A stretch of DNA of 64,000 nt from an uncultured Armatimonadota bacterium (GTDB lineage Bacteria; Armatimonadota; Fimbriimonadia; Fimbriimonadales; Fimbriimonadaceae), in assembly GCA_903833215.1 (NCBI GenBank), contig CAILEM010000160.1:62001-126000 (forward strand). The letters run 5' to 3'. Of the stretch, positions 8,402 through 25,961 are shown one piece after another. The translations under genes were made by a program, and so were the position numbers. Numbering within the stretch: the first letter of the stretch is position 1; the number at the start of each line of letters is the position of its first letter. The notes beneath the pieces were generated by a model that was not told where the DNA came from, ran no database searches, and saw nothing but the letters and a program-made list of their open reading frames with translations.

Positions 8402-10933
8402 CTATTGCTGAATCGAGACTCCGTGCCATTTCAACCCCGATAACCGATCAATTTGGGTTATCCGGCAGTATGAGATTGCCTTATCCGACGGAATGGAGAG
8501 GCCAACGGCAGAGATGCCGCCCGTTCGGTGTGCCAACACACATACACCCTTCTGAGTTTCCGCTCTGACCTGAAGCCCGTACTTCAGCTTGTAAACCAAC
8601 GGTTTTGAATCCTGGATTCCAATCTCAATTTGGGCAATCTGCTTGCCGTCTTCGACCGGTTGATCCGTGCTTAGGGCCAGAAAGAGTTTGCTTCCTTGTC
8701 CGTCCAAGTGCACCTCAAGTTGGGATGGGGAAACTTCAGGCTCCATGTTCAGGATGCTTGCCGAGTGAAGTGGCAGCTTAAGCAGCTTAAAGTTGACGCG
8801 GCCAATCCTCTGCTCGGTTGAAGCACTGCTTTCGTATTCCGTCCCCGGTGTCGTTACGGCAGAGGTTGGCGGGTCGAAGTACATCTTCTTCAGGACCTGC
8901 ATAGGGTCATAAGGAAGTGCTGAAACTGGTTCAAGCCGTGGATTCCATGCGTAGTCAGCGGCAACCACCATCGCCGCGTACTGCTTGAGGGCGGCAAGCA
9001 TCGTTTCTTCACTGCTCTCATATCCTGCCCAAGTCGTGATCAATGCCCCGTCGGATGCCGTTGTGGATGCGGCGTTGAAGAAGGAACGAAGGTTCTGGGA
9101 GTTAAACCACGCGCTCGCGATGGGTCGCTGTCCGCTCGCTTGCCAAACCTTGAGCGATGTTTCGAACTTGCTTGGGTTGGAATTCCCTGCATAGTGCCAA
9201 TCGCAAATGAAGGCACCCTTCGGGACGACGCTTCGTCTTTGCTCCGCTTCCTCTGCGTTATCTCCGAATGCGGCGTCAATCGCCTCATTCGGAGCCAAGC
9301 ACTTGTCTCCCCAGAGCATCATGCCTACGCTGTGCCTGTCGGCAATCGATGCTAAGAACGGAATGTGAAGTTTCCACATCTCGGTCACAAACTTTGGATC
9401 GGGCTTCCATCCTCGCATATCCACTTCATCCAATCCAAAGTGGACGGTTTTGGGCTTCAACGAGGCGATGATCTCATCCCATAGGGAAGTCAAGACTTCA
9501 CGTGTTCGTGGCTTTCTCGGGTCAAGCGAGTAGGGAACGTCGGGGTTGAGGGCGAGGTCGAGGTTTTTGCCGCGCACAAACATCCACTCCGCATGGCCAA
9601 AGCTTTGGATGAGTGGAATCGGGTCGACCCCAATGTCACGGTAATAGCGAAACAGCCGCACCAAGTTGGCGCGCTTCATCGTGATGGGAGTGTCGATTCC
9701 TGGAAGCGTACGCCACGATGTGCGTTCGCACTGCAGAACGACATGGTTGAACCCGAGCGGCTTCAGGAATCGATCCCATAGTTTGCGATGAAAGGCATTG
9801 GCTGTCGGCCCGACAAAGAGGTGAACCCCGCGCCAAGCAATGCCTGGTTCATCTTTGATCTGGCCTGAAGGGATCCACTGACGCCCATCCTTGACGAAGC
9901 ATAACGACCCTAGTCTCTCCCAAGCGGACTTGATCCCTTCATCGTCTCCAGCCCGGATGTCCACGCCACTGCTTTGCATGGAAAGCTCATAGCTTCCCGG
10001 CTTCATACCGTTTCGCTTGTCGAATTCGACATTGATGCCACCTGAGCGTAATCCAGGTGGGGAAGCAAACCTTCGAGCAAGCGTGTCAGAAAAGATACTG
10101 ACGAAAGGTAAGGCCCTCGGGACCTTGAATCCGCGGGTCACTTCGATTGGGCTACTGAATTGGAGCTCGGCAGATTTTGGCTTGGGTATGAGAATGGGTA
10201 GGTCTTCATTCGGAGCCACCAAATCATTGCTGTGAAGTGGCCGAAGAGACTGACTCATTGCCCCACCTGTGGCGGGAAGATGCACCGCGACTTGGTACAT
10301 TGCGTGGAGTTTTGCGGGATGACCTGCGCTCACGTTCAGGTCTTGAGCACCTAGCCAAAACTGATCGTCTTCGTCTGCCCACTCGTATCCTCTTGCATCA
10401 AATAGCGTGAGGGGAGCGTCGGATGAAATCCCCAATTCCCCCAAGCGAGATTGGAGGCGATACATTCGACTATCAGGGGTGAACTTTCGCTCTTCGATGT
10501 CCGTGTTTGACTTGAAGGTTCGTAGATTCAAACGTGCTGTGATCGAATCCGTACCCAGTTTGCCTTTATCGAAGACAGGTGCCCAGAGGTTTCCGAGCGT
10601 AACCTCCACTTTGACCGGCGTTGGCCCTGACCAGTTGAAAACGTAATCGACAGTCAGCGTCGATCCGTCCTTCCTAAAGGTCTCGGTACCGCTGGCGAGT
10701 CCGTCATCGGATGCGAAACTCACGACCGTCGAATGGTCTGGGAGCTGCTTAACGGTCTGCTGGTGGTATTTGCTTGAGTAGTAGCTCTTCTTCCACCCAG
10801 CCTCGTAGTATTCAAATCTGGAACCTTTGATCACCGGGATCCCTTCGGATAGGACGGTTAGCCCCCTCCCAGATTCAAGCGACGCTTGAGGAGCACTAGC
10901 TTGGACAACGAAGAACAGTGGGAGGATGGGCAT
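8402..10933 (-). CDS. GH20-like beta-N-acetylhexosaminidase, secreted
   Basis: Predicted exported glycosidase of 843 aa. It starts with a short signal peptide (MPILPLFFVVQASA), followed by a ~200-residue beta-rich N-terminal domain, a GH20b-like alpha/beta segment, and a GH20-type TIM barrel from about residue 365. The barrel begins GIAWRGVHLFVG and carries HFGLDEVDM, where D502-E503 match the Asp-Glu pair of substrate-assisted GH20 catalysis (usual form HxGGDE). A C-terminal beta domain follows. Substrate is likely a terminal GlcNAc or GalNAc. It is last in a minus-strand run: regulator, pseudopilin, lipoprotein, this gene. The barrel is divergent, so the exact linkage is uncertain. Confidence 0.75.
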   Translation of the reverse strand: MPILPLFFVVQASAPQASLESGRGLTVLSEGIPVIKGSRFEYYEAGWKKSYYSSKYHQQTVKQLPDHSTVVSFASDDGLASGTETFRKDGSTLTVDYVFNWSGPTPVKVEVTLGNLWAPVFDKGKLGTDSITARLNLRTFKSNTDIEERKFTPDSRMYRLQSRLGELGISSDAPLTLFDARGYEWADEDDQFWLGAQDLNVSAGHPAKLHAMYQVAVHLPATGGAMSQSLRPLHSNDLVAPNEDLPILIPKPKSAELQFSSPIEVTRGFKVPRALPFVSIFSDTLARRFASPPGLRSGGINVEFDKRNGMKPGSYELSMQSSGVDIRAGDDEGIKSAWERLGSLCFVKDGRQWIPSGQIKDEPGIAWRGVHLFVGPTANAFHRKLWDRFLKPLGFNHVVLQCERTSWRTLPGIDTPITMKRANLVRLFRYYRDIGVDPIPLIQSFGHAEWMFVRGKNLDLALNPDVPYSLDPRKPRTREVLTSLWDEIIASLKPKTVHFGLDEVDMRGWKPDPKFVTEMWKLHIPFLASIADRHSVGMMLWGDKCLAPNEAIDAAFGDNAEEAEQRRSVVPKGAFICDWHYAGNSNPSKFETSLKVWQASGQRPIASAWFNSQNLRSFFNAASTTASDGALITTWAGYESSEETMLAALKQYAAMVVAADYAWNPRLEPVSALPYDPMQVLKKMYFDPPTSAVTTPGTEYESSASTEQRIGRVNFKLLKLPLHSASILNMEPEVSPSQLEVHLDGQGSKLFLALSTDQPVEDGKQIAQIEIGIQDSKPLVYKLKYGLQVRAETQKGVCVLAHRTGGISAVGLSIPSDKAISYCRITQIDRLSGLKWHGVSIQQ

Positions 10934-10997
10934 TTTGTTCAGATTCCGGACTCATCTCTGCGAAGAGTCAGGCTTCAGGAAGATGATCGAGGAACAA

Positions 10998-11192
10998 TCA
11001 CGGCCCTGGATGAGCAGCGGCACGCCGAGCTTGGCCAGGTGAAGCTCCGCCAACTCCATCGGCGCCGACCACTTTGCCGTTGATGGTTCGCTTGTCGGAT
11101 TCATTTGATCCGCCCTCGGGGCCGGAGCAGCCGTAAGCCACGCCAGCAAGAATAACGACTAGAGCGAGTTCTTTGTTGAGTTTTAACTTCAT
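10998..11192 (-). CDS. Small lipoprotein
   Basis: A 64-aa product with a lipoprotein signal peptide: MKLKLNKELALVVILAGVAYGC, where the Cys is lipidated, followed by a Ser/Gly/Asn-rich stretch. It starts 52 bp after the pseudopilin and is on the same strand. The C-terminus (SPGQARRAAAHPGP) is odd; the neighbouring frame continues as a more protein-like sequence to 10952, so a one-base frameshift in the tail is possible. Function is unknown. Confidence 0.5.
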   Translation of the reverse strand: MKLKLNKELALVVILAGVAYGCSGPEGGSNESDKRTINGKVVGADGVGGASPGQARRAAAHPGP

Positions 11193-11243
11193 AGTGCACG
11201 TTGTGAGCAACCACCAAACTTGATGGTTGCCCAATGGGATGTC

Positions 11244-12092
11244 TTAGTTACAGCCTGACCAACTGTCCATGAGAACCGAAGAGTTAGCTCGGAAATACTT
11301 GTTCGTAGCAACGCATTCAGGATCATTTGGGGCAAGCGCGTACATCGCCACCGTATCAAGTGCGTAGATTACGGACTGCTGCATGGATTTGGCGTGTCCA
11401 TCTGAGAAAGCATAGTTCGCTTGCGAACCGTTGTGGCGCTGTGGCTTCTCCCAGTGGTCATTGGCAACTGTCTTGGGGTTGCTGATTGAAACTCCGTCCC
11501 ACCACTCTTCGAAGTAGGGTGGCGCTAGCTTGTTGGCTTCACGTGATTCGCCAGCAAATACGAGGTTTGCAGGGTCGCTGGCCGCGGTCTGGCTGATCGG
11601 GGGCGAGACGGCAGGGTCGTCGGGGCTAAATCCAGCAGGCGGTGAGTAGTTGCGCATGGCGAGGTGGTAGTTGAAACCGTACGATGGAAATCTCGAATTA
11701 GGTTGAGTGCCATCAGGGTTCGCAGTTGAATTATCGTCTGGGCATCGCCACATGCTGCCAGCGGCATCAAACGTGTAGCCGGAGATCGTAGCTGCTTTAC
11801 CGTTCTTGATGTAGGGCTGAAGAATTCCGTACCAGATGTTGGCTTGGTTCTCGTAAAGGCCGTGGTTGAAATGCGAGTAATCACCTTCGGTCGCGACCGG
11901 GACATACATGTCGTCGTTGTCGTTTGAGTAAATGAGTTGGCCTAGTCCGATGTTTTTGACATTGCTCAGACAAGAGGTCTTCTTCGCAGCCGCCTTGGCT
12001 TGAGCAAATACGGGGAACAAGATTGCAGCCAGGATGGCAATAATCGCAATGACGACGAGAAGTTCGATAAGCGTAAACGCCTTTGTTTTCAT
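11244..12092 (-). CDS. DUF1559 pseudopilin (type II secretion/type IV pilin-like)
   Basis: A 282-aa prepilin-like protein. The N-terminus [19 protein letters not shown] is the class III signal and hydrophobic alpha-1 helix, cut by prepilin peptidase between Ala6 and Phe7; the usual Gly at -1 is replaced by Ala. The helix is followed by the group-typical [20 protein letters not shown] stretch and the DUF1559 body with a C-terminal H/DGHAKSM motif. Its ATG overlaps the stop of the GntR regulator (ATGA), so it is translated from the same message. Co-transcription of a pseudopilin with a sugar regulator suggests an envelope role in glycan capture or export, which is inference. Confidence 0.9.
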
Positions 12093-13463: not shown

Positions 13464-14699
13464 TTAGCCCTTCATGCCCGTCGTGGCAACGCCGGCGAGA
13501 ATGTATCGTTGAGCAATCAAGAAGAGCCCGGCGACGGGAAGCATGGAGAGTAGTGCCCCTGCCATCAATAGCGGTCGGTTGTCAACGTACGGGGACCGGA
13601 AGTATTCGAGCCCCGGGCTGATCGTTCGATAGTCTGGGTTGTCAAGGTAAATCAACGGCCCCATCACATCCTGCCAAGCCGCGACGAACGAGAAGAGTCC
13701 CACAATGATGAGAACGGGTTTACAGTTGGGAAGCACAATGCTTCGATACACTCGGAACGCTGAAGCCCCGTCGATCTCCGCTGACTCATCGAGTTCCTTC
13801 GGGAGGCCGAGCATGAACTGTCGAATCAAGAACACGTTGAACGCCCCCGCCGCAAATTGAGGAACGATGAGGGGCCAAAAGCTATCCATCCAGCCGATCG
13901 ACTTGAAGATGCAGAAGAGGGGAATCAGAGTGACCTGCCCCGGCACCATCATGGTCGCCAGCAAGATGATGAACAGCAGGTTTCTTCCTTTGAAGTTCGT
14001 TCTCGCGAACCCAAACGCGACGAGGCTGCTGCTGAGGATTTGACCCAAGACAGTCAAGACGCCTAACATCAGGCTGTTCCTCATAAAGAGCAGAAAGCCG
14101 CCGCTCTTGGCACCGATCGCGCCCTCGGGGCCCTTGAGCGCTTTCCCGAAATTCTCCCAATGAGCACTGAAGTGCCGGATATCTTGGTGGGGACGGTTCT
14201 TGACGACTTCTATGCGATCGACATTTGTGTTTGGCGGGGCCGTGAAAAGTAACTCATCAAAGGCAGCCTCTTTCTTACGGACCATCCTCGCTAAAACCGC
14301 TCGGCGGTTACTGTCTACGAGTTGAACAGGAATGCTGGGCAAGTCGAGCTGTGCTGATTGCCAAGGAATTGGTTTGGCAGATTCGGTGGCAAACCACTTC
14401 ACAAGCTTGGTTGCCTTGTCGCTTGCAAACTGCAGGAAGTAGGCACCCGGGCGTTGGTCGTTACCTAGGAGATCGGCAGAAGGGATCAATCGCATCCAAT
14501 TGCTGCCCTCGATATGAAAGAATCGGCCCCTTGATGGCATTCTGACCGACAGGCTGAGCTGCTCGGCTGGGTACATAGATGGTGGTTCCAAGTTCATGCC
14601 CTCCACCGATTTCAGAGAGCTGATCACGACCCAATAAAACGGAAACATTAGGAGTAGCGATACGACAGTGAGAGCCACATAGACCGGAAAGCGCTTCAT
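13464..14699 (-). CDS. Carbohydrate ABC transporter permease (MalG-type) with extended periplasmic loop
   Basis: Inner-membrane permease of 411 aa. The first membrane helix is at residues ~5-27. A long, largely beta-rich extracytoplasmic stretch follows (about 45-175), far larger than the ~50-residue loop of ordinary MalG-type permeases. The conserved core comes next, with the EAA loop (SAEIDGASAFRVYRSIVLP) that docks on the ATPase. The start ATG overlaps the TAA of the upstream fusion gene (TAATG), so the two are translationally coupled. No ATPase gene is nearby; a shared MsmK-like ATPase elsewhere is likely. The substrate is probably an oligosaccharide, possibly one released by the GH20-like enzyme. 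Confidence 0.87.
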   Translation of the reverse strand: MKRFPVYVALTVVSLLLMFPFYWVVISSLKSVEGMNLEPPSMYPAEQLSLSVRMPSRGRFFHIEGSNWMRLIPSADLLGNDQRPGAYFLQFASDKATKLVKWFATESAKPIPWQSAQLDLPSIPVQLVDSNRRAVLARMVRKKEAAFDELLFTAPPNTNVDRIEVVKNRPHQDIRHFSAHWENFGKALKGPEGAIGAKSGGFLLFMRNSLMLGVLTVLGQILSSSLVAFGFARTNFKGRNLLFIILLATMMVPGQVTLIPLFCIFKSIGWMDSFWPLIVPQFAAGAFNVFLIRQFMLGLPKELDESAEIDGASAFRVYRSIVLPNCKPVLIIVGLFSFVAAWQDVMGPLIYLDNPDYRTISPGLEYFRSPYVDNRPLLMAGALLSMLPVAGLFLIAQRYILAGVATTGMKG

Positions 14700-17155
14700 T
14701 AGTTCGCCTCCGTATGAACGAAGCGCTTTGCCAGCTTCAGTTGGCCATAAGTGATCGCGAATATGATCAGAAACAGGATGATGGCGTAGCAACATGCTTC
14801 ACCCATTTGAAGGTTGTTGAATGCCTTGTCGTAGATGTTGACTGCGTAGAAACGAAGCGAATCGTTGGGTGCGCCAATCTCCGTAGAAGATCCAGCAAAG
14901 AACAGCGCGGGGGTGAAGACCTGGAAGCTACCGATCGTTGTCATCACCACCATAAACAGAATGACGGGGGAGAGCATCGGGATCGTGATGGATCGAAACT
15001 TCCGTGCAGCGGACGCGCCATCCAGCTCGGCCGCCTCAAATAGGGCCTGGGGAATCTGCTTCATCCCTGCGTAATAGACGATCATTGCGCCCCCAACCCA
15101 GAACACATTCATCAACAGGACCGAGTAGAAGGCATGGCCCGAATCCATCCAATCTGGACCGGAGATATGCAGCCAGGAGAGGATGTAGTTCAGAACACCA
15201 TGGTCTTTGTTGAGCATATTGGTCCAAAGAACCGCGGTCTCCGCGCCGGTAAAGAGCGCGGGGAAGTAGATCAACGCTTTGAAGAAGTCCGCTCCTCGAA
15301 TTCCTGTCGTCAACAATCCAGCCGTGAAGAGTCCTCCCGCGAGGGAAATAGGGATCGCGATTGCGGCATAGGTGAAGGTAATGCGGATGCCGGTCAGGAA
15401 TTTCGCGTCGCTCGCCAGATCCAAATAGTGCTGAAACCCGACCCATTGCGGGCTCGAGATCATGTTCCAATTGGTGAAGCTCAACAGGACCGAAGCGAGG
15501 ATAGGCCCGACCACAAAGCAAGTCAGCCCGATGAGCCATGGAGTCAAGAAGAGCGCTCCACCTCGGGTGATCCTTGACGTTGCTTTGGCTGAATCATCTT
15601 GTCGTTCGCGCGATATTCCACGAAGGTATAAGCCTGCCAAAAGGAGAATGCCGATCAACGTGGCCGCGGGTAGTACCTGCCTCACAAAGGCACTTGAGTG
15701 TTTCGGCTGGTCTTCCTGAATGGCGGCTCGAATGCCGGAGTCCAAGTTCGTTAAACGGTCGCGAACGCACTTCTCGATAAAGGTATTCATTCCCGAAACG
15801 AACTGCGCATATTTCTGCGATGAAATCGGCTTTGGCAGAGCGACCAATCGACGTTCGTATTCACCAGCAATTGTCTCTTCGGTACCGCTCAACCAGTCGT
15901 CGCGGACCTTGGCTACTGTGGTGATCCCTGCGGTCAAGGCGGGCGACGCAACGCTCATATCGTGGATGAACGCCTCGCAACCGGGGATGCCATATTCATT
16001 CTTGAGGAATGACTGGACAGCGCCTTTACGTGGTGGGATGCCGCCTAAACGTGAGGCGCGTTCTCCGGTGACCTGATTGGAGGTCATATATTGCACGAAC
16101 TCCCACGCCTCGTCAGGATGCTTGCACCCTGCAAAGATCGCCAGTGAGTTGACGTTAATGAGAGCGTGATCGCCGGCTCCGTGTGGGACTGGCGTCAGAC
16201 CGAAATGAACTCCAGCATTCTTTAGCTCTTTGAGCGCCCAAGGGCCGGTGGTGCCCATGGCGATCTTGGAATTCAGAAGGAGAGAGTCGGAGTTCACCGT
16301 GAATGCGCCTGCGGAAAGTGGCTTCGGGCCCAAGGTTGTCGCATCACCATATTCGGATTGGAATAGCTCAATAATTGACTTGGCGAGGCGATCATTTCCC
16401 GCAACAGTGCTGCGTGTTGGATCGACGGGGCGATCCACGAAGTCCGATCCATCCTTGCCCGAGATCGTAAGGTTCCAGTTTTGTCCAGCCGACATTCCGT
16501 ACTGGGCGACGGTCCCGTCCGGATTCCGTAGCGTGAGCTTCTTTGCCAAAGACTGGAATTGATCCCAGCTCAACGATTTGTCACTTTTCGGCCATTCGGA
16601 CTTAGGGATGCCACTCTGTTCGAGGAGGTCCGTGGAATAAACAACCGACCAACCTGCGATGTCGGTGGGCAGTGCATAAAGGTGGTTGTTCCATCGACAA
16701 TTCTCGATCGTGACTGGAAAGAAATCATCCAGGCGATAGCGACTCTTTTCTGCGAGTTTGTCGAGGGGCATCAACGCACCTCGCGCAACCCAGACACCAA
16801 AACTGCCCGAAAAGAACTGCATGACGTCGGGTGCTAGGCCGGAAGCCATTTGGGTTTGAAGTTTGGCCCAGTACTGTCCCCAGGGATAAACGCCGATGTC
16901 TAGTCGAATATTGGGATGAGCCTTTACGAAGCGTTGCGCGAGATTGCGCGTGCTTACAACTTCGTCTGCTCCACCCCATAGTGCATAGCGAATCGTCGTT
17001 TTCGGGCCAGGAAAGCTTGTGTTCTCGACGATTTCCGCGCGGGCGCAAGCGGTCATCATGCCGACTGCCGCCAACAACGCGAAAGACACGCCCTTCATGA
17101 GCAAGCAGTATATACTGCTTCTCACGATGTTGCTCTGGCCCGTCACGTTGCTCAT
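14699..17155 (-). CDS. Fused sugar-binding protein and ABC permease (MalE-MalF-type)
   Basis: An 818-aa fusion of two importer parts normally encoded apart. Residues ~20-37 form a lipoprotein-type signal ending in MMTAC. Residues ~50-430 are an extracellular solute-binding protein family 1 domain (IRYALWGGADEVVSTRNLAQ near the start). After a linker and a membrane helix (VLPAATLIGILLLAGLY), residues ~530-818 are a MalF-type permease with EAAELDGASAARKFRSITIP as the EAA loop. AGGAG lies 5 nt before the ATG at 17155; a shorter start at 17098 would give a neater signal peptide but has no ribosome-binding site. With the longer start, the palindrome 17102-17119 is inside the coding sequence. Coupled to the second permease. 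Confidence 0.87.
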   Translation of the reverse strand: MSNVTGQSNIVRSSIYCLLMKGVSFALLAAVGMMTACARAEIVENTSFPGPKTTIRYALWGGADEVVSTRNLAQRFVKAHPNIRLDIGVYPWGQYWAKLQTQMASGLAPDVMQFFSGSFGVWVARGALMPLDKLAEKSRYRLDDFFPVTIENCRWNNHLYALPTDIAGWSVVYSTDLLEQSGIPKSEWPKSDKSLSWDQFQSLAKKLTLRNPDGTVAQYGMSAGQNWNLTISGKDGSDFVDRPVDPTRSTVAGNDRLAKSIIELFQSEYGDATTLGPKPLSAGAFTVNSDSLLLNSKIAMGTTGPWALKELKNAGVHFGLTPVPHGAGDHALINVNSLAIFAGCKHPDEAWEFVQYMTSNQVTGERASRLGGIPPRKGAVQSFLKNEYGIPGCEAFIHDMSVASPALTAGITTVAKVRDDWLSGTEETIAGEYERRLVALPKPISSQKYAQFVSGMNTFIEKCVRDRLTNLDSGIRAAIQEDQPKHSSAFVRQVLPAATLIGILLLAGLYLRGISRERQDDSAKATSRITRGGALFLTPWLIGLTCFVVGPILASVLLSFTNWNMISSPQWVGFQHYLDLASDAKFLTGIRITFTYAAIAIPISLAGGLFTAGLLTTGIRGADFFKALIYFPALFTGAETAVLWTNMLNKDHGVLNYILSWLHISGPDWMDSGHAFYSVLLMNVFWVGGAMIVYYAGMKQIPQALFEAAELDGASAARKFRSITIPMLSPVILFMVVMTTIGSFQVFTPALFFAGSSTEIGAPNDSLRFYAVNIYDKAFNNLQMGEACCYAIILFLIIFAITYGQLKLAKRFVHTEAN
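17102..17119. promoter_or_regulatory. Perfect 18-bp palindrome, candidate GntR operator
   Basis: AAGCAGTATATACTGCTT is a perfect inverted repeat between (or just inside) the divergent starts of the importer fusion gene and the serine hydrolase. Its core CAGTATATACTG recurs with one change upstream of the GntR regulator gene. It is most simply read as that regulator's binding site. Confidence 0.6.
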
Positions 17156-18198: not shown

Positions 18199-21100
18199 TC
18201 ACCGCATCAGGCGATCGCATTCGTTTGCCAAAATACTCGCTCGCAGCACCTTGAGGGTGTCGTCGAAAGTGTGGCAATCGTTGGCTTTTTCGATAGTGCG
18301 AAGTTTCGCAGCGCAGTCAGCCAATGCGGCGTGATAGGGTTGACCGCCTTCCCGTCGCTTTAAGAGGGCGCGGGCAAACAGTCCCTCCGGTTCGTCCTCG
18401 AAGACAACATTCGATGGGCGGATCCCCTTGCGCGCAGAAAGGAGAAGCTTGGCGACACCCGCATCACGATCCCCGTCTTGATTCTCGAAATTCCCAATCA
18501 ATTCATCCCACCGACCTTGACTGGCATTGAGATCGAGAGCTGATCTGGCCAACAGTGGAGAGAGTCCTCCGTAGGTGTTAGGGTCTGCAATACGATAGCG
18601 CTCCAGAAATGACTCGAAGCGAATCTGAGCGGACGGATCTCCATTTGCAGCTAAAGCAAGAGCTGCCATTGTTGGCCTTCGAACTCTCCATGACGCGGAT
18701 TCATCGGAGAACGCATTTTCAACGACGGAAACCGCTTTCACAAAATCGCGGTTTCCGACAGCGGCTTGAAAGAGTGATGTGCCGGTTGTCTTCGATTTGT
18801 CCAGGGACCACAACGCCGTAAAGGCTTTCTCAGCTTTAGCGTATTGACGAAGCCTGAGGGCGACGGTGCCTTCTAGATACAGGACCCCAGCGTCAGTCAC
18901 TCCATGCTTCTTTGCTTCGGCTAAGGTATCGGAAGCCGCCTCGTAGAGACCGGCACTCACCTCCGCCCTTGCTGCGGCAAGGAGTGATGTTGCGTCGCGG
19001 GTGGGGAGACCGATGTCGCCGACAGCATCGTCAACGGCATATTCTGTGCGTTGGCCATGTGACGCCGGCTCTGATTCTGCCTGATTCACACCTTTCGTCG
19101 AGCGTGTGAGCCGGGTGCGTAGTTTTTTCCAGGTGGTCGAGTCTACGCGACGCATTGTGATTGCTTCTGCCGCTTGTTTGAGGAGTGCCTCGTTAGAAGT
19201 TTGACTATAAAGGCGTCGCACCACTAAGTAATCACCGATCTTACTAGCGTAGGCGCTTTGATCTGGTGAAAAGCAGTAACCACTTCCTCCTGCCAAATCG
19301 GGAAGCACCTGCTCTCCCGTTTCAGGATCACGAAACCCAATCCGGCTACTCAAAATCACTGCCAGCAATTCGCCACGTGTTGCTATTCTTGGAACTGCAA
19401 ATGCTCCAAGAAAAATGGGGCCAGCCATGTGGTGCGTCTTGAGGTTGAGCACACTCATTGAAGTTGCGGTTGAGATAGCGAGGTAGCGTCCGTCTTGACT
19501 GAACCAGTTTTCAATGGGACGCTCGTCAGTTAACTGACCTGTTACCGCCGCGCCATTATCGAACCTGTGCAGTGCACGCGTCGAGGGATAGAAGAACCAC
19601 CGATTCTGGGGATCTTCTGAGACTCCAAACATCTCAGGGCGGTCGAACGGAAGTTGAGGATAGGAGGCAACCACGCGCCCGGATTTCATATCCCATAAAT
19701 GGCCGTAATCGGTATCCAGAACTCGATCCACCGCAGAACTGTGAAGCAAGTTGTTGGTAAAGTGCAGCCCACGGAGTTGAATAAGTGGATGGCCATCTGC
19801 CGTGCGAAATGTACTTATGCTCCACACACCATTTCGCACACGATAAGCCCCAAACAACCTTCCATTTGGGCTTGTTACAAGGAGCTTTGCTCCTGACCCC
19901 GGTTGGGCCGTCGCAATCAGCCGGCCCGTGTGCATGGACCAGATGTCAGCTGCACCGGTGGGACGGAGCGCGATGACACGATCTATTTGCGGAAAAATCG
20001 CCAACTCGGGATTTCCCATTCTTCCGTTTCGTGCGTCATCTTCCCTAAGCACTATATCGGCTGACAATTCAATCGTGCAGATTGTTTTGCCCCCAGAATC
20101 CAAGTCCAGAATTCGAGCTCGTTTGGGAGCGTACTGATCGAAAAGATACCGCTCGTCATCCGTTAGGCAGGCATAGGATCGAATCCGCGCTGTACCTCCT
20201 TCACACTTTAGAGGCGGCGTGATGAACCTATTGGCTGAGAAATCGAACACACGAATAGCGTTCCCTCGCAAAAAGATTCCCCTTCGATGGGCGGCTTCTA
20301 ATGATCTGGGAAAAAAGAACTGGTAGCCGGGAAGGTATGAGTTCCACCCAATTGACGGAGTCCATCGATAGGTTGACTCTATATCGGATGCTACCAATGT
20401 TCCACCGGTCGTCCAATACCAAATGGGAGGAGCCTTAAAACGAAGATGCTGTGTCGAGGATTCAACGAGTCCTACGGTTTTCGCAACCCAAAGTCTGGCG
20501 GTGCCATCCTTACTGCAGGTGAGAAGCTGCGTCCCTGCCTCATTGAAGCGAACTTTTGTCACTTCCTGGCGGTGCCATAAAGTTGAACCGACCTGCTCTC
20601 CGGTCTGTACATTCCAGGTTCGAATCGAGCCGTCAGTGCCTGCAACTGCTGCTAACGCTCCATCGGGCGAAACATCGCAATCTACAACTTTGGCATGAGA
20701 TCGGATGGTGGGACCAACTCGCGATCCGGTTCTTACGGAAAACAGTTGCACCGTCCCGTGATCGGTGGCAGTCAGCACTAATTCTCCGTCTCGGCTTAGC
20801 CGAAATGCCGACCCAATTCCATCTTCCGCCGATACATTTCGGAGTTTTTGAACGACAGACCCAATTTTTGGAAGGCAGATTTGGGCGACGCCTGCTGTCT
20901 CGGGAGGGTATGCGCCGTTTATCAAAAGACCGTTCCCGCCACGCACAAAGGCGGCTTGGTTCGCATTGAAACAAGTCGATATGGAATGGTTCCCCGCACC
21001 ATCACCAAGATCCACACTGTAGGCAATGTAGTTCGCAGAACAGATAACCAGGCGCTTGGCGGTAGGTGAAAACGTCAGGGCAGTAACTCGAACAATGGAG

Positions 21101-23010
21101 GCATCCTGAAAGGCATGCGACAATAGCCTTCCGTCATGCAGATCCCAAACCCAGACATCAGTGTGTTCTGACCCGCCCAGTGTTCTGGAGGCTCCCGCCA
21201 GTATCCGGCCGTCCTCTGAGTAACTCAATCGAAGCATGGCGCCTGGTGCGCGAAGACGGCGGATGGCTTGCCTTTTGTTTACATCCCAGATGCAAATCTC
21301 TCCTTGGCCATTTCCAGATGCAACGTGCCGCTGGTCTCTGGCAATCGCTACACAACTTAGCCCGAAGTGATGCATTGGATTTCCAACGCGCTCACCATTC
21401 TTCGCGTCCCAAACCGCAATTTGCCCGTCTTGGTTTGCGGTGATCACGCTGATTGTTGAGGGGACAAATTCCGCATCAAGCATCTCCCCCGAACCCGACC
21501 ACACTTGCCTGAGGTTCGAGGCGGCGCGAAGAGCGTACTCCAGACGGATTCGATGCATTGATGCTCGATGAGCATCGTTTCGGTCGAGTTGTAGCGCGCT
21601 GGCGAGAGGAGCAATGGCTCCGGCCGGATCTCGGGAGTCGAGACGCTGCATGGCAGTCGCGACCAGTGATTGGCTTAGGCGTTGGTTTGCAAGGTCGGTC
21701 GCCGTTTTGGCGTTGGTTGCCTCGATCGCAGCTTTGCCAGCCGCTGTTTTGGCCAGTCCGCGTTGGAATTCGGCCTGTGCCGCCGCTTGACGAGATTCCG
21801 CCTGTGACCGGGTGGCGTCTCCGAGGGCGGAATTCGTTTTGCCTAGTGCATTGCGTAGATTTTCCTCGGTGCGACTCAGATTTTGGGTGAGTATGCGCGA
21901 GTTGGAGAGTGCAGAACGGGCAATTCTTGCCTGCGTAAATGCGTAGACGGCTAAGCTTCCCACTGCTAGTAAGCTGGCAGCTCCAAAGGCCGCTGCCCGA
22001 ACGACACCTGACCAGTAGGCGGCTCGACGGCGACGCTCTTCTGCATCCGGCATGTGGTGGTGGACCCACGCCATGTCGAAGACCTCGGCGTAGATTCGGT
22101 TTCGCACCTTAAGGGTGCCGGACTCCACTCGCGTGATACCCGCCATTCGCAAAACCGAACAGATCGGATTGGCGGGATCGTCTTTTACTTTCTTGCCAGA
22201 CCGGACATCTGCATACAGCTCAAGAATCGACGGCACATCCGATTCATCCTTCAGGATGCGATCGCGGACAAAGGCAAGATTGTCGTCGCTTTCCTTTGCT
22301 CTTCGCTCAAGGAACAAAGAACGGCACACACTATCCACGTCTCCGCTCCCAGAAACAGAAACTTCCTGACATAGCCGCTGGGTGAGATAGGGATGACCGC
22401 CTGTCCAATTGAGGATGCGACGGAGGACTGACAATTGGTTTCCCGGAAGTCCCTCGGCAAGCACCTGCGCCTCTTCGGTTCGAAAGTCTTGCAACTCGAT
22501 GCGTCGACCGATATTGAAGGGAGAAACACGGGTGTCTTTGATGAGTTCGGCTGGTGTCGCAGTACCAAAAAGGCTGAACGTGAGCCTCTGCAAACTTGGG
22601 TTCGTCGCTCGTCCCACATAGCATTGCCGAATGCCGGCAAAGAACTCGTCGGTATCAAACGGTAGGGAGCGCGTGACGTCGATTTCATCGATGAAGATAG
22701 CGATCTTGCTTTCGACTTCGTGAAGTGCCACATCCTGAATGGCTCCGAAGAACCTTTGGACCGGTGCTAATTCGGTATTGGCCCTCCAGTATCCAAGCAG
22801 TTCCTGAGAGAGTCCAAGACTCCTTCCCAACTCGCGTAACATGGCCATGAACCATTGGTCTGGCGTTATGTTGCGTACACCAAACTTCGTTAGATCTAGG
22901 AATGCAGTTCGGACACCCAATCCGTTAAGTTTCACGAGGGCACGGATACACAACGACGACTTGCCCATCTGACGTGAGTCAAGCGTGAAAACGTAATCCC
23001 CGGCAAGCAC
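18199..23010 (-). CDS. AAA_35 NTPase with transmembrane helix, WD40 propellers and TPR tail
   Basis: Giant protein of at least 1603 aa. Residues ~1-330 are an AAA_35 (AAA-like) NTPase with Walker A SRQMGKSSL and Walker B AIFIDEID, then a winged-helix-like segment. A membrane helix is at ~345-365, followed by a coiled coil rich in Ala/Gln. From ~500 to ~1370 there are many WD40-type repeats (for example DGQIAVWDAKNGERVG and DGTARLWVAK), probably two propellers. The C-terminus (~1395-1600) is helical and TPR-like. The first usable start is GTG at 23010, but the conserved AAA_35 N-terminus (FYITGGTLPDTATCYVER) is encoded upstream to about 23100 with no ATG, GTG or TTG. It is the third gene of the XRE/TIR operon. 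A sensor-scaffold role in conflict or signalling is inferred. Confidence 0.8.
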   Translation of the reverse strand: MLAGDYVFTLDSRQMGKSSLCIRALVKLNGLGVRTAFLDLTKFGVRNITPDQWFMAMLRELGRSLGLSQELLGYWRANTELAPVQRFFGAIQDVALHEVESKIAIFIDEIDVTRSLPFDTDEFFAGIRQCYVGRATNPSLQRLTFSLFGTATPAELIKDTRVSPFNIGRRIELQDFRTEEAQVLAEGLPGNQLSVLRRILNWTGGHPYLTQRLCQEVSVSGSGDVDSVCRSLFLERRAKESDDNLAFVRDRILKDESDVPSILELYADVRSGKKVKDDPANPICSVLRMAGITRVESGTLKVRNRIYAEVFDMAWVHHHMPDAEERRRRAAYWSGVVRAAAFGAASLLAVGSLAVYAFTQARIARSALSNSRILTQNLSRTEENLRNALGKTNSALGDATRSQAESRQAAAQAEFQRGLAKTAAGKAAIEATNAKTATDLANQRLSQSLVATAMQRLDSRDPAGAIAPLASALQLDRNDAHRASMHRIRLEYALRAASNLRQVWSGSGEMLDAEFVPSTISVITANQDGQIAVWDAKNGERVGNPMHHFGLSCVAIARDQRHVASGNGQGEICIWDVNKRQAIRRLRAPGAMLRLSYSEDGRILAGASRTLGGSEHTDVWVWDLHDGRLLSHAFQDASIVRVTALTFSPTAKRLVICSANYIAYSVDLGDGAGNHSISTCFNANQAAFVRGGNGLLINGAYPPETAGVAQICLPKIGSVVQKLRNVSAEDGIGSAFRLSRDGELVLTATDHGTVQLFSVRTGSRVGPTIRSHAKVVDCDVSPDGALAAVAGTDGSIRTWNVQTGEQVGSTLWHRQEVTKVRFNEAGTQLLTCSKDGTARLWVAKTVGLVESSTQHLRFKAPPIWYWTTGGTLVASDIESTYRWTPSIGWNSYLPGYQFFFPRSLEAAHRRGIFLRGNAIRVFDFSANRFITPPLKCEGGTARIRSYACLTDDERYLFDQYAPKRARILDLDSGGKTICTIELSADIVLREDDARNGRMGNPELAIFPQIDRVIALRPTGAADIWSMHTGRLIATAQPGSGAKLLVTSPNGRLFGAYRVRNGVWSISTFRTADGHPLIQLRGLHFTNNLLHSSAVDRVLDTDYGHLWDMKSGRVVASYPQLPFDRPEMFGVSEDPQNRWFFYPSTRALHRFDNGAAVTGQLTDERPIENWFSQDGRYLAISTATSMSVLNLKTHHMAGPIFLGAFAVPRIATRGELLAVILSSRIGFRDPETGEQVLPDLAGGSGYCFSPDQSAYASKIGDYLVVRRLYSQTSNEALLKQAAEAITMRRVDSTTWKKLRTRLTRSTKGVNQAESEPASHGQRTEYAVDDAVGDIGLPTRDATSLLAAARAEVSAGLYEAASDTLAEAKKHGVTDAGVLYLEGTVALRLRQYAKAEKAFTALWSLDKSKTTGTSLFQAAVGNRDFVKAVSVVENAFSDESASWRVRRPTMAALALAANGDPSAQIRFESFLERYRIADPNTYGGLSPLLARSALDLNASQGRWDELIGNFENQDGDRDAGVAKLLLSARKGIRPSNVVFEDEPEGLFARALLKRREGGQPYHAALADCAAKLRTIEKANDCHTFDDTLKVLRASILANECDRLMR

Positions 23011-23099
23011 GCCTTGGACAAGTTGACTGTCGGCTGCCCTCTCGACGTAGCACGTTGCCGTGTCGGGAAGGGTGCCTCCAGTGATATAGAAGGGGCGGT

Positions 23100-24554
23100 T
23101 TAGCTCAGGTGCCGTGCCAAATACCTCCGATAAAGCTTGCAGCGGATCATGTGGTTACCTACCGAGTTCTTGGTTAGGATGCCCGCGGCGACGAGTCTAT
23201 CCACCTCGGGAGATGATTCCACGAATTGGTTGGCGAGGACCCGCTTTACGGCATCTCGCACCGTTGAAAGTTGGCTTACGGAGACAAGAACACGGCGTAG
23301 GTGATCACCGAATGGGCCATCATCTCGATCGGCAGAAGCGAGCAGAGCCCGCAAGTGTCCCTGGGTGCGAAGGAGAACATCGAATGCGGTCCGCGTCAGG
23401 TACGGTTGGCCATCAAGAAGCTCCTGCAACTCATGTACTTGGTCGATGCCGTGCAAGGGCTCAGCGTATCTACGATTAAGCTCTTCAGATTGGCGTAACG
23501 TGAAGCCAGAGAGGAGGATTTTCCGACCGACGTTGAATGGCGATTGGTTGATATCCTGGATAAACAGATGGGCTTCGGTTGCATAGGCGATGACAACCGA
23601 GAATCGGTGCCAAACAGGATCGGTTGAGAGCGCGTGAGCGTTATGCCACGATCGGATGAGCGCAAAGAAGCCGTCCGCAAAGTTCGTGGAAAAGAGCCAG
23701 TCCGCCTCATCCAGGAACCAAATGATTTGTCCAGGATGAGCACTGAGCAGGGAGATCATAAACTCATCCAGGTTGGAGGTCGGGGTGAAACCTTCTTCCC
23801 ACGACCAGTTCCACGAGGATCCGGTTGAGGCTTGAATTTGTCGTGCCAATCCCCTCGCGATCAAGAGGTACAGATCGTTCTCATCGGCTTGGAGGTTAGA
23901 ACCCATCCGTTGAAAGTCGGTGAAAAGAGGGTGAGCACCTATCTCGCGGCAGTACTGAACCCCTTGGGCGAGGAGAGAACTTTTACCGGTCTGTCTTGCC
24001 CCCTTGACGAGCACCGTCGGCTCACTTACCTTAAGGCAATCTTTGAGGTCGGTATCGGCTTCACGCTCCAGATAGTAGGGTGATTCCCACCCGACCGCAC
24101 CGCCTGCGGAATCGAAAGACAGGACCTGGGTGGGCCGTTCAACTGGTTCTTTCAGTACGGCAAGAATCTCGGCAATGAGCGGGCCCGTGTCGTCATCCGA
24201 CCTCCAGGCACCCGTGTAATGGGCTCCAGCGAGAGGCAAATCGTCTTCAGGGTTCCCAGGAGGAATCGGAACACAGATGAATCGAAGTTTGGGATTCTTC
24301 AGCCGAGCGTCAGCCACGACCTCCAACTCATATCGGAGCATTTCGCTTCTGAGAGATGCGTCCGATATCACAGCAAGGACGGAATCGGCGCTTCGGATTT
24401 TTTCGTCGACCGAACGTGCCCAGTCGACACTGATCCGCAAATGTCGATCGACATACGTTCCGTAACCAGACTCTGTCAGGGCCTCTTCGAGCGTGCATAC
24501 GAGTTGATCTTGGGGACCAGTCGCGCGATCAAAAAGGATAACAAGTTGATTCAT
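23100..24554 (-). CDS. TIR domain-AAA_35 NTPase
   Basis: A 484-aa protein. Residues 1-135 are a TIR-type domain (RHLRISVDWARSVDEKIR, then SDASLRSEMLRYELEV; E76 lies where TIR NADases have the catalytic Glu). Residues ~165-480 are an AAA_35 NTPase with Walker A GARQTGKSSL (K191) and Walker B IIWFLDEADWLF, plus a C-terminal winged helix. The ATG at 24554 is chosen because the TIR strand starts there; the frame is open further up but without domain. Its stop overlaps the conserved 5' part of the next gene by ~50 nt in another frame. TIR domains of bacterial defence proteins cleave NAD or make cyclic ADP-ribose signals; that this one does so is inference. Confidence 0.85.
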   Translation of the reverse strand: MNQLVILFDRATGPQDQLVCTLEEALTESGYGTYVDRHLRISVDWARSVDEKIRSADSVLAVISDASLRSEMLRYELEVVADARLKNPKLRFICVPIPPGNPEDDLPLAGAHYTGAWRSDDDTGPLIAEILAVLKEPVERPTQVLSFDSAGGAVGWESPYYLEREADTDLKDCLKVSEPTVLVKGARQTGKSSLLAQGVQYCREIGAHPLFTDFQRMGSNLQADENDLYLLIARGLARQIQASTGSSWNWSWEEGFTPTSNLDEFMISLLSAHPGQIIWFLDEADWLFSTNFADGFFALIRSWHNAHALSTDPVWHRFSVVIAYATEAHLFIQDINQSPFNVGRKILLSGFTLRQSEELNRRYAEPLHGIDQVHELQELLDGQPYLTRTAFDVLLRTQGHLRALLASADRDDGPFGDHLRRVLVSVSQLSTVRDAVKRVLANQFVESSPEVDRLVAAGILTKNSVGNHMIRCKLYRRYLARHLS

Positions 24555-24627
24555 GACGTTAAGGCAACAGACGACAAGGTAAATGCTAGGCTCTATTTTG
24601 CCTGGATGTACAATGCGGCAAAAAGTG

Positions 24628-25893
24628 TCACCATGTCTCCAGGAAAGGCTGACTCCATAGGAACTCTTCAAAAAAGCTGTGGTCAAGTGCGAGTTGTCGG
24701 GAAATTCGAACCGCAAGCGAGGACCAGTGTTGCGCCTCTTGCTTCTTCTCTAGAGAGTTGTGAATCTCGAATAGGCTGTGTGCCTCGAGCGCATTTATGA
24801 GTGGAGTCGAATCCGAGAGCCCAACAATCGCCCCCAAGGCGTCATCGGGTTTCCCCTCGGCTAGGTGAATTCTTGCCCGATTGAAACTGAGAAGTTTGAC
24901 GACCTTGGGACCTGAGTTCTTGGCAGACGCGAGTGCTCGGTCTGAATACGCAAGGGCTCTGGTGAAGGCACCCGTCCGGGTGTAGATTTCGGAATAGACG
25001 TCCATACGATGGGAAAGCAATTGCCAATCCAGCGGGCGTTTATCGAGTCCATCAAGGATGCGAATAGCCAGTTTTGGGCCTCGGACCTTTGAGGCACCGC
25101 TATGGCATCGGGCAAGCAAAATGTCTACCGCCAGTAGTGCTCGATCTCCAGGTTTTCTGCATTCTTCGAAGAGCTGTTTGGCATTTTCAGCATGGTGGAC
25201 GGCTTCTCTGTGCCGGTGCCGGGCCATCAGCTTCCAAGCGTATGCGCCGTGGACATGGGCTTGCCAACGTTTGTTTTCCGTTACGGTTGGAAAATCAAGC
25301 AGCCTCAAGAATTTGGCGTCGAAGAGTCGTATATCCGATCCATCCTTTGGAGCCAGGACCGATTCTATTGCTGTGATGAGTTCAACCTCTGATTTTGGTG
25401 GCATCAGCGAATCGGACATGAGACCACTGAGCTCACCGTCAGATATCTGCAGAACTTCAAAAAGCTTGTCGATTTCTGATGGAGATGGACTCAGTCGCCC
25501 AGATTCCCATCGCCTTACCGTCGTGGGATCACAATCAAAATGTTGAGCGAGTGCAGCATGAGACAAGCCCGATCGATTTCGGGCAAGTTTTAGTAAAAGT
25601 GCAAGTCTGCCCGTCCGAGCGGGATCGAATTCCCGTTTGGCTCGATTGCTGGTCAAGGTCATGGTGAGTTCTTCGACTTCTTCGGAACTGAGCCGGAGGG
25701 CTTCGATCACCGATGCCAGTTCAGGGACCCACGGCGAAACATCTGCATTTTCCCATCGGATGATCGTCCGGCGAGAAATTCCGGAAAGGTCTGCGAGTTG
25801 ACCCTGGGTCATCCCACGTCGCACTCTGGCTTCGCGTAGGGCATTTGAGAAGGATCCAGCATCTCTCAACTTAGGTGAAGACATTTCTGTCAT
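24628..25893 (-). CDS. Double-XRE helix-turn-helix protein with TPR-like C-terminus
   Basis: A ~421-aa protein (431 if started at 25923). Two XRE-type HTH domains come in tandem: the first with RRGMTQGQLADLSGISRRTI, the second ~60 residues later with SGLSHAALAQHFDCDPTTVR. The C-terminal ~230 residues are helical TPR-like repeats (AYAWKLMARHRHREAVHHAE, RALAYSDRALASAKN). Such proteins bind DNA and respond to a peptide or protein ligand. It is the first gene of the operon with the TIR-AAA_35 and AAA_35-WD40 genes, 73 bp upstream of the former, and likely controls them. Starts at 25923, 25893 and 25884 are all possible; none has a Shine-Dalgarno sequence. Confidence 0.82.
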   Translation of the reverse strand: MTEMSSPKLRDAGSFSNALREARVRRGMTQGQLADLSGISRRTIIRWENADVSPWVPELASVIEALRLSSEEVEELTMTLTSNRAKREFDPARTGRLALLLKLARNRSGLSHAALAQHFDCDPTTVRRWESGRLSPSPSEIDKLFEVLQISDGELSGLMSDSLMPPKSEVELITAIESVLAPKDGSDIRLFDAKFLRLLDFPTVTENKRWQAHVHGAYAWKLMARHRHREAVHHAENAKQLFEECRKPGDRALLAVDILLARCHSGASKVRGPKLAIRILDGLDKRPLDWQLLSHRMDVYSEIYTRTGAFTRALAYSDRALASAKNSGPKVVKLLSFNRARIHLAEGKPDDALGAIVGLSDSTPLINALEAHSLFEIHNSLEKKQEAQHWSSLAVRISRQLALDHSFFEEFLWSQPFLETW

Positions 25894-25961
25894 CACTGAT
25901 AATGTGACATATTTTGCCCACATCTGAACAGGTTGGGTTGGGCACCTAGATTGTAATCGTC

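Follow-up and report, generated by a model that had tools for sequence, protein, structure and literature searches.

The minus strand of a 64,000-nucleotide stretch of DNA from an uncultured Armatimonadota bacterium (the window) carries two genes, one for a TIR domain fused to an AAA_35 STAND NTPase and one for a second AAA_35 NTPase with a membrane helix and WD40 propellers, which probably give rise to an NLR-like signalling unit divided between two STAND NTPases that act as partners. Proteins of the first kind are called type A here, and proteins of the second kind type B. At least six bacterial phyla have such a pair of genes, and A and B are inherited as pairs.

Results

As shown in Table 1, the operon consists of three minus-strand genes that run in one direction, namely a regulator with two XRE-type domains and a TPR-like part, the TIR–AAA_35 gene and the AAA_35–TM–WD40 gene. 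This layout and its coordinates had been proposed in a sequence-only reading of the same DNA, and both were borne out. Pfam likewise recovered the double XRE domain (HTH_31, 1.5e-23; HTH_3, 6e-22), the fusion of TIR to an NTPase (TIR_2, 5.5e-11; full AAA_35, 3e-56) and, in the third gene, the second AAA_35 (3.8e-21, rising to 1.2e-23 when the N-terminus was included) with its WD40 propellers. The membrane helix of that reading was found again as a hydrophobic peak that directly follows the AAA_35 module, at about residue 373, and is kept in 108 of 114 B proteins. The TPR assignments held less well: matches in the regulator were weak and below the cut-off, and the tail of the WD40 gene gave one weak match (TIGR02917, 2e-4). 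Translation of the TIR gene begins at ATG 24554, for a product of 484 residues, and not at TTG 24716; counted from this ATG, the residue numbers E76 and K191 read earlier are correct. Around the operon the window is metabolic, with transport and sugar genes. At 14699-17155 of the window, a sugar-type ABC transporter solute-binding protein and a permease are seemingly fused in one 818-aa frame.

Table 1. Coordinates of the features described in the text (window positions, except where locus L201 is named)
Feature	Position	Strand	Remarks
XRE regulator	24628..25923	-	two XRE-type HTH and TPR-like helical C-terminus; Pfam
XRE-type HTH domains of regulator	25678-25839 and 25429-25608	-	Pfam HTH_31/HTH_3
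Type A (executor) protein, 484 aa	23100..24554	-	TIR and AAA_35 STAND NTPase; Pfam
TIR of type A protein	24141-24554	-	catalytic Glu76
AAA_35 of type A protein	23103-24122	-	Walker A Lys191
Type B (sensor) protein	18199..23115	-	about 1638 aa if the start is ACG 23115
Candidate non-canonical start ACG of gene B	23113..23115	-	from sequence; inference
AAA_35 of type B protein	22057-23091	-	
Membrane helix of type B protein	about 21937-21993	-	
Coiled coil of type B protein	21637-21837	-	
WD40 propellers of type B protein	20482-21513; 19585-20400	-	second less sure
Weakly TPR-like tail of type B protein	about 18601-18984	-	
L201 pair with complete diversity-generating retroelement (DGR)	L201:5275-11409		
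L201 DGR parts	VR 9528-9655; TR 11282-11409; RT 10221-11270		HRDC accessory protein

In 291 Armatimonadota genomes, searches with Pfam AAA_35 and with a profile built on the module of the WD40 type distinguished the two protein types; as each genome contributed only its few best candidates to the scoring, the counts are lower bounds. In type A the match spans the entire Pfam AAA_35 model, and an output domain precedes it. In type B the match is mostly to the first three quarters of the model, the C-terminal part is B's own, and the AAA_35 module is followed first by a hydrophobic helix, then by a coiled coil and last by the sensor. The genome from which the window comes has seven AAA_35 genes, among them a second tandem pair.

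Both free ends vary. When the outputs on A were tallied once per distinct protein with Pfam checks, SARP-type DNA-binding domains were the commonest (56), followed by cyclase-TIR (31), TIR (25), cyclase (8), kinase-TIR (8) and kinase (7), with a few other fusions and nine proteins without an assigned output. The sensors on B were WD40 in 89 cases, FGE-sulfatase in four and others in 29, including PEGA, MORN/RHS and Ras-TIR. Cyclic-nucleotide-binding proteins adjoin 8 of 41 cyclase-type loci, none of 59 SARP loci and none of 33 TIR-only loci, so the outputs seem to be functional and specific to their loci. At two loci (L008:6451-11254 and L043:7352-9904, in G000:C99 and G012:C87), a cyclase-TIR-AAA_35 gene lies directly beside a gene for a conserved cyclic-nucleotide-binding protein on the opposite strand. 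In a Verrucomicrobiota locus (L204:1044-6250) a TIR-type A is followed by an AAA_35-Roc/Ras-TIR protein, i.e. a B protein that has a TIR too, and a Chloroflexi locus (L218:1684-5103) unites SARP/BTAD, protein kinase, TIR and AAA_35 in a single protein of 1140 residues.

We then examined how the two types are placed and inherited. Of the 106 type A genes of Armatimonadota (again lower bounds), 82 lie no more than 12 kb from a B gene, in the arrangement A-then-B tandem (37), B-then-A (21), convergent (23) or divergent (1), where about one such case is expected by chance, by simple arithmetic from some two B genes per 4-5 Mb. Both types are present in 53 of the 57 genomes that have either. A wider survey was seeded by TIR-AAA_35 alone, and the best 80 of 450 relatives from the genome collection were kept; outside Armatimonadota, B lies directly downstream of 27 of the 30 TIR-type A genes that have room for it. 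The 27 belong to Acidobacteriota (11), Verrucomicrobiota (6), gammaproteobacteria (5), Planctomycetota (2), Aminicenantes (2) and Chloroflexi (1). A mirror-tree comparison of 110 pairs gave r = 0.82, against 0.00±0.06 for freely shuffled partners. Such a value could stem from species history alone, and partners were therefore shuffled only within genomes, using those that hold at least two pairs. The observed correlation was then 0.71 and the shuffled one 0.32±0.10, with none of 2000 shuffles as high. The putative sensor and executor STAND proteins are thus encoded together and co-inherited, in analogy to paired NLRs. In the window's genome, a SARP-type A gene and a B gene lie on separate contigs (G000:C12:62250-63224 and G000:C42:28860-30152) and are possibly a split pair; genes of their kind are convergent neighbours in other Fimbriimonas.

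The start of gene B sets the window apart. The conserved N-terminus of its AAA_35 (FYITGGTLPDTATCYVERAADSQLVQG) lies upstream of the listed GTG 23010, which is accordingly too late: the module begins about 27 codons 5' of this GTG, and its reading frame reaches back into the end of the TIR gene. No ATG, GTG or TTG is available to gene B in the stretch upstream of GTG 23010. Among 69 tandem junctions, most genes overlap or abut, typically by a 4-bp overlap with the first stop (ATGA, GTGA, TTGA), and 68 offer one of the three codons to the second gene; the window is the sole exception. A perfect Shine-Dalgarno sequence, GGAGGT, is found at 23123-23128 (minus strand), 7 nt before an in-frame ACG, and the TIR stop codon TAA (23100-23102) comes just after it. 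This ACG (23115-23113) is the best candidate start, with assembly error and early decay as alternatives.

Three other readings of these genes were weighed. It is extremely improbable that A and B are neighbours by chance and work separately: one of the two does occur alone in some genomes (24 of 106 A genes), but many of these cases sit on short contigs, and the pairing across many phyla, the overlapping starts and the within-genome co-inheritance all argue against it. Nearly as improbable is that -1 ribosomal frameshifting close to the TIR stop codon joins A and B of the window into a single polypeptide. The B frame is indeed open in -1 for about 18 codons ahead of this stop, and B has no standard start; yet no slippery heptamer was seen by eye in the overlap stretch, the loci examined include no fused TIR-AAA_35-AAA_35-WD40 protein, and the relatives use overlapping starts at their tandem junctions. 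The lack of a standard start codon for B means that the window copy may be weakly expressed or decaying. A full loss, in which the start codon is gone and the system no longer functions in this strain, is less far-fetched than the two readings above but still improbable. The window's solitary position among the junctions favours it, as does the fact that translation from GTG 23010 would remove about 27 conserved residues, whereas the B frame of 1600 codons is intact with every motif present, a perfect GGAGGT stands 7 nt ahead of an in-frame ACG, and a single-base sequencing error would also explain the missing start. The A–B pair is very probably one functional unit.

The XRE gene behaves differently from the pair. 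A full-length homologue, 32% identical, lies upstream of the same A/B pair in Fimbriimonas sp. MAG_BO249, a congener of the window's genome, where it ends 3 bp upstream of the TIR gene. Elsewhere in the locus set no full-length homologue was found beside an A/B pair, and weaker homologues occur among unrelated genes. Alignment to the sole pair-associated homologue puts the likely start of the regulator at an ATG near 25890. The three genes were therefore rejected as a conserved unit. Co-occurrence, which the sequence-only reading had named as a check on its exact three-gene system, holds for the TIR/WD40 pair in many phyla, but for the XRE gene in two species only. This gene is plausibly a local regulator of the operon and not a core part.

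Structure models gave both proteins NLR-like folds. The AlphaFold2 model of TIR-AAA_35, built with 43 sequences, reached a pLDDT of 90. By fold comparison its AAA_35 matched the archaeal STAND-type ATPase 2qen (Z 22.9, rmsd 4.0, 313 aligned) and CED-4 (Z 17.9, rmsd 4.4, 290 aligned), and NLR resistosomes were matched too. The whole A chain matched the plant TIR-NLR RPP1 over residues 1-484 (Z 17.5), both domains included, with a large rmsd, presumably because the domain angles differ. Its TIR matched that of SPARTA TIR-APAZ (Z 16.4, rmsd 2.8, 132 aligned) and also RUN1 and SARM1 (SARM1 Z 14.7), and profile matches were found to Cat1 and AbTIR. The B model (1190 residues, pLDDT 76) had full-length Apaf-1 as its best Foldseek match (E 3e-33), and in a second fold search Apaf-1 stood near the top with Z 35.8, a result in which the propeller fills the rows and the AAA part is little tested. 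No solved structure matching the AAA_35 of type B by sequence was found. From these fold matches, A is an NLR core with an effector and without a sensor, and B an NLR core with a sensor and without an effector.

Catalytic and nucleotide-binding residues are conserved. The catalytic Glu of the TIR (Glu76 in the window) is kept in 91 of 94 sequences, and the Walker A Lys in 189 of 189 A and 156 of 156 B sequences having that column, in counts that include some loci twice, since two collections overlap. The Pro of GxP and the Walker B Asp/Glu are nearly invariant in both types. Both A and B thus show the NOD fold, Walker A, Walker B and C-terminal GxP of STAND P-loop NTPases, and the window A combines the TIR fold with the catalytic Glu. 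It is likely that this TIR cleaves NAD+. As to topology, no second strong hydrophobic segment was found in the sensor part of the 108 B proteins with the helix, and Lys/Arg residues flanking the helix number 4.7 before and 2.9 after it. This positive-inside bias predicts a cytosolic NTPase and a sensor outside the inner membrane, in indirect support of the earlier suggestion that the helix may part the ends of B across the membrane.

One locus, L201 on an uncultured Methylococcaceae contig, encodes a TIR-type A, an AAA_35-FGE protein, an HRDC protein and a reverse transcriptase, in this order. A 128-nt stretch of the FGE C-terminus of B recurs after the reverse transcriptase. Between the two copies (VR and TR), 15 of 17 mismatches fall at template adenines, which make up 31 of the 128 positions (binomial about 5e-8, by simple arithmetic). 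Such adenine-biased mismatches are the signature of a DGR and mark the B sensor as its target. DGR-diversified FGE sensors on STAND proteins have been proposed as antigen sensors (PMC10907252).

The neighbourhoods were searched for defence genes. The raw PADLOC count was 85 families near TIR loci and four near SARP loci, and SARP-type neighbourhoods have almost no defence genes. Several matches at TIR loci are generic, such as a RecQ-type helicase called DpdF and an NtrC-type regulator called RtcR, and the defence-island evidence is therefore treated as weak. The earlier reading had named location in defence islands as a check. Genuine defence neighbours, namely restriction genes of types I and III and HerA paired with SIR2, stand at a few TIR loci only, and the surroundings of the window are metabolic. 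In Chthonomonas (L048:6488-12208, G021:C30), genes for HerA and a SIR2-like protein stand between a truncated B and a TIR-type A, so that one defence module looks inserted into another. In another genome (L047:5568-17985, G007), two adjoining B genes without A lie beside a type I restriction locus (HsdR, HsdS-like).

Discussion

The NLR-like STAND logic split over two NTPases, as first read in the window, is upheld by a pair that is conserved, co-inherited and NLR-like in structure, with its TIR and P-loop residues kept. We consider it probable that B senses and A executes: the DGR-varied FGE domain of the B protein in L201 speaks for the sensor role, and the cyclic-nucleotide-binding neighbours of cyclase-type loci speak for the output role. 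In the proposed mechanism B would hold its AAA_35 in the cytosol and, across one membrane helix, its WD40 domain (elsewhere FGE or others) outside the inner membrane. A ligand on this sensor would switch the NTPase of B from ADP to ATP, and the switched B would nucleate co-assembly with A through AAA_35-AAA_35 contacts. The assembly would gather the TIR domains of A and turn on NAD+ cleavage, which may stop growth, kill the cell or make a nucleotide signal. The two-XRE regulator probably controls expression of the operon.

As to its use, we lean slightly towards a role in conflict with phages or other attackers over one in ordinary signalling. A general transmembrane signalling platform in place of an immune system, in which B would sense an envelope or environmental cue and A relay it by whichever output is fused (transcription factor, kinase, cyclase or a nucleotide signal made by TIR), seems rather unlikely, although several observations agree with it: SARP-type outputs are the most frequent and kinases and cyclases are also used, cyclic-nucleotide-binding proteins adjoin cyclase-type loci, SARP-type neighbourhoods are nearly without defence genes, and the sensor is predicted to lie outside the inner membrane. 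For the TIR branch, however, outputs with a conserved catalytic Glu, one locus with a DGR-diversified sensor, and restriction, HerA and SIR2 neighbours at some loci fit conflict better. Since SARP-type outputs are the commonest in Armatimonadota (56 loci), the platform is not only lethal, and part of the AAA_35 pair family evidently serves regulation through them.

To our knowledge, characterised bacterial NLR-like defences keep effector and sensor on a single chain or rely on adaptor domains. In the A/B pair the NLR is divided between two NTPases that are obligate partners, with outputs exchanged on A and sensors on B in the course of evolution. The pair therefore offers a ready system for asking how a sensor STAND protein activates an executor STAND protein and how paired-NLR logic arose, and whether a single switch can drive either cell death or transcription; its conserved tandem and defined active-site residues make it directly testable. 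Tentatively, it may exemplify a widespread bacterial 'STAND two-component' architecture, possible rather than probable at this breadth, in which a transmembrane sensor NTPase (with an extracytoplasmic WD40 or FGE domain, sometimes DGR-hypermutated) would switch a partner NTPase, the executor, with an exchangeable output (TIR, kinase, cyclase or transcription factor) that leads to immunity or gene regulation, as a counterpart of paired plant NLRs.

The A/B pair is a real paired-STAND system and apparently an undescribed one. PADLOC-DB (2023) held no good match for either NTPase of the window pair, and no literature on AAA_35 as a signalling or conflict family, or on the pair, was found in a search whose scope left out most subscription papers and preprints. 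All parts are of known kinds; what we did not find described is their obligate pairing, with an effector-only and a sensor-only STAND protein and swappable ends.

Several known systems share parts of this design. Avs (AVAST) and bNACHT proteins also place a STAND switch between an effector end and a sensor end, and Avs5 was among the fold matches of the A model; they are, however, single polypeptides without a membrane helix, whereas here there are two chains with an NTPase of a different family (AAA_35). No Avs model matched the window proteins in PADLOC at E<=0.01, and effector and sensor are on separate chains; Pfam gave no NACHT for A and none among the 25 families listed for B. As to Thoeris, the operon has no ThsA-like gene (SIR2/macro-SLOG), and no Thoeris model matched the window proteins. 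AfsR and other SARP-STAND regulators fuse SARP (BTAD) to a STAND-type NTPase, as the commonest type A does, but here the same chain has no TPR sensor, and the sensor is the partner B.

The nSTAND/VMAP/EAD conflict systems of multicellular bacteria, with DGR-diversified CLec/FGE sensors (PMC7159879, PMC8195603, PMC10907252), draw on the same outputs as the A/B pairs (TIR, cyclase, kinase) and on the same sensors (propeller, FGE), and at one locus the DGR is shared as well; the name AAA_35 is absent from these three papers. In contrast to those systems, the pairs do not rest on MoxR-vWA or adaptor domains (Pfam found neither MoxR AAA+ nor vWA genes in the three-gene operon), and the effector is coupled through a second AAA_35 NTPase.

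Other parallels come from eukaryotes. Apaf-1, Dark and CED-4 resemble the pair in that NOD is joined to WD40 propellers as in B, and the NOD of A is close to that of CED-4; here, however, the effector sits on a separate STAND protein of the operon instead of being recruited by CARD, and a membrane helix and coiled coil stand between NOD and propeller of B. In plant TIR-NLRs (RPP1, ROQ1) the chain unites a TIR with a NOD that has the fold seen in A, and in paired plant NLRs of the RPS4/RRS1 type a sensing and an executing STAND protein are likewise encoded side by side. In contrast to the plant proteins, the executor here has no sensor repeats and the sensor no effector, WD40 or FGE behind a membrane helix takes the place of LRR, and the two are joined in a bacterial operon with exchangeable outputs.
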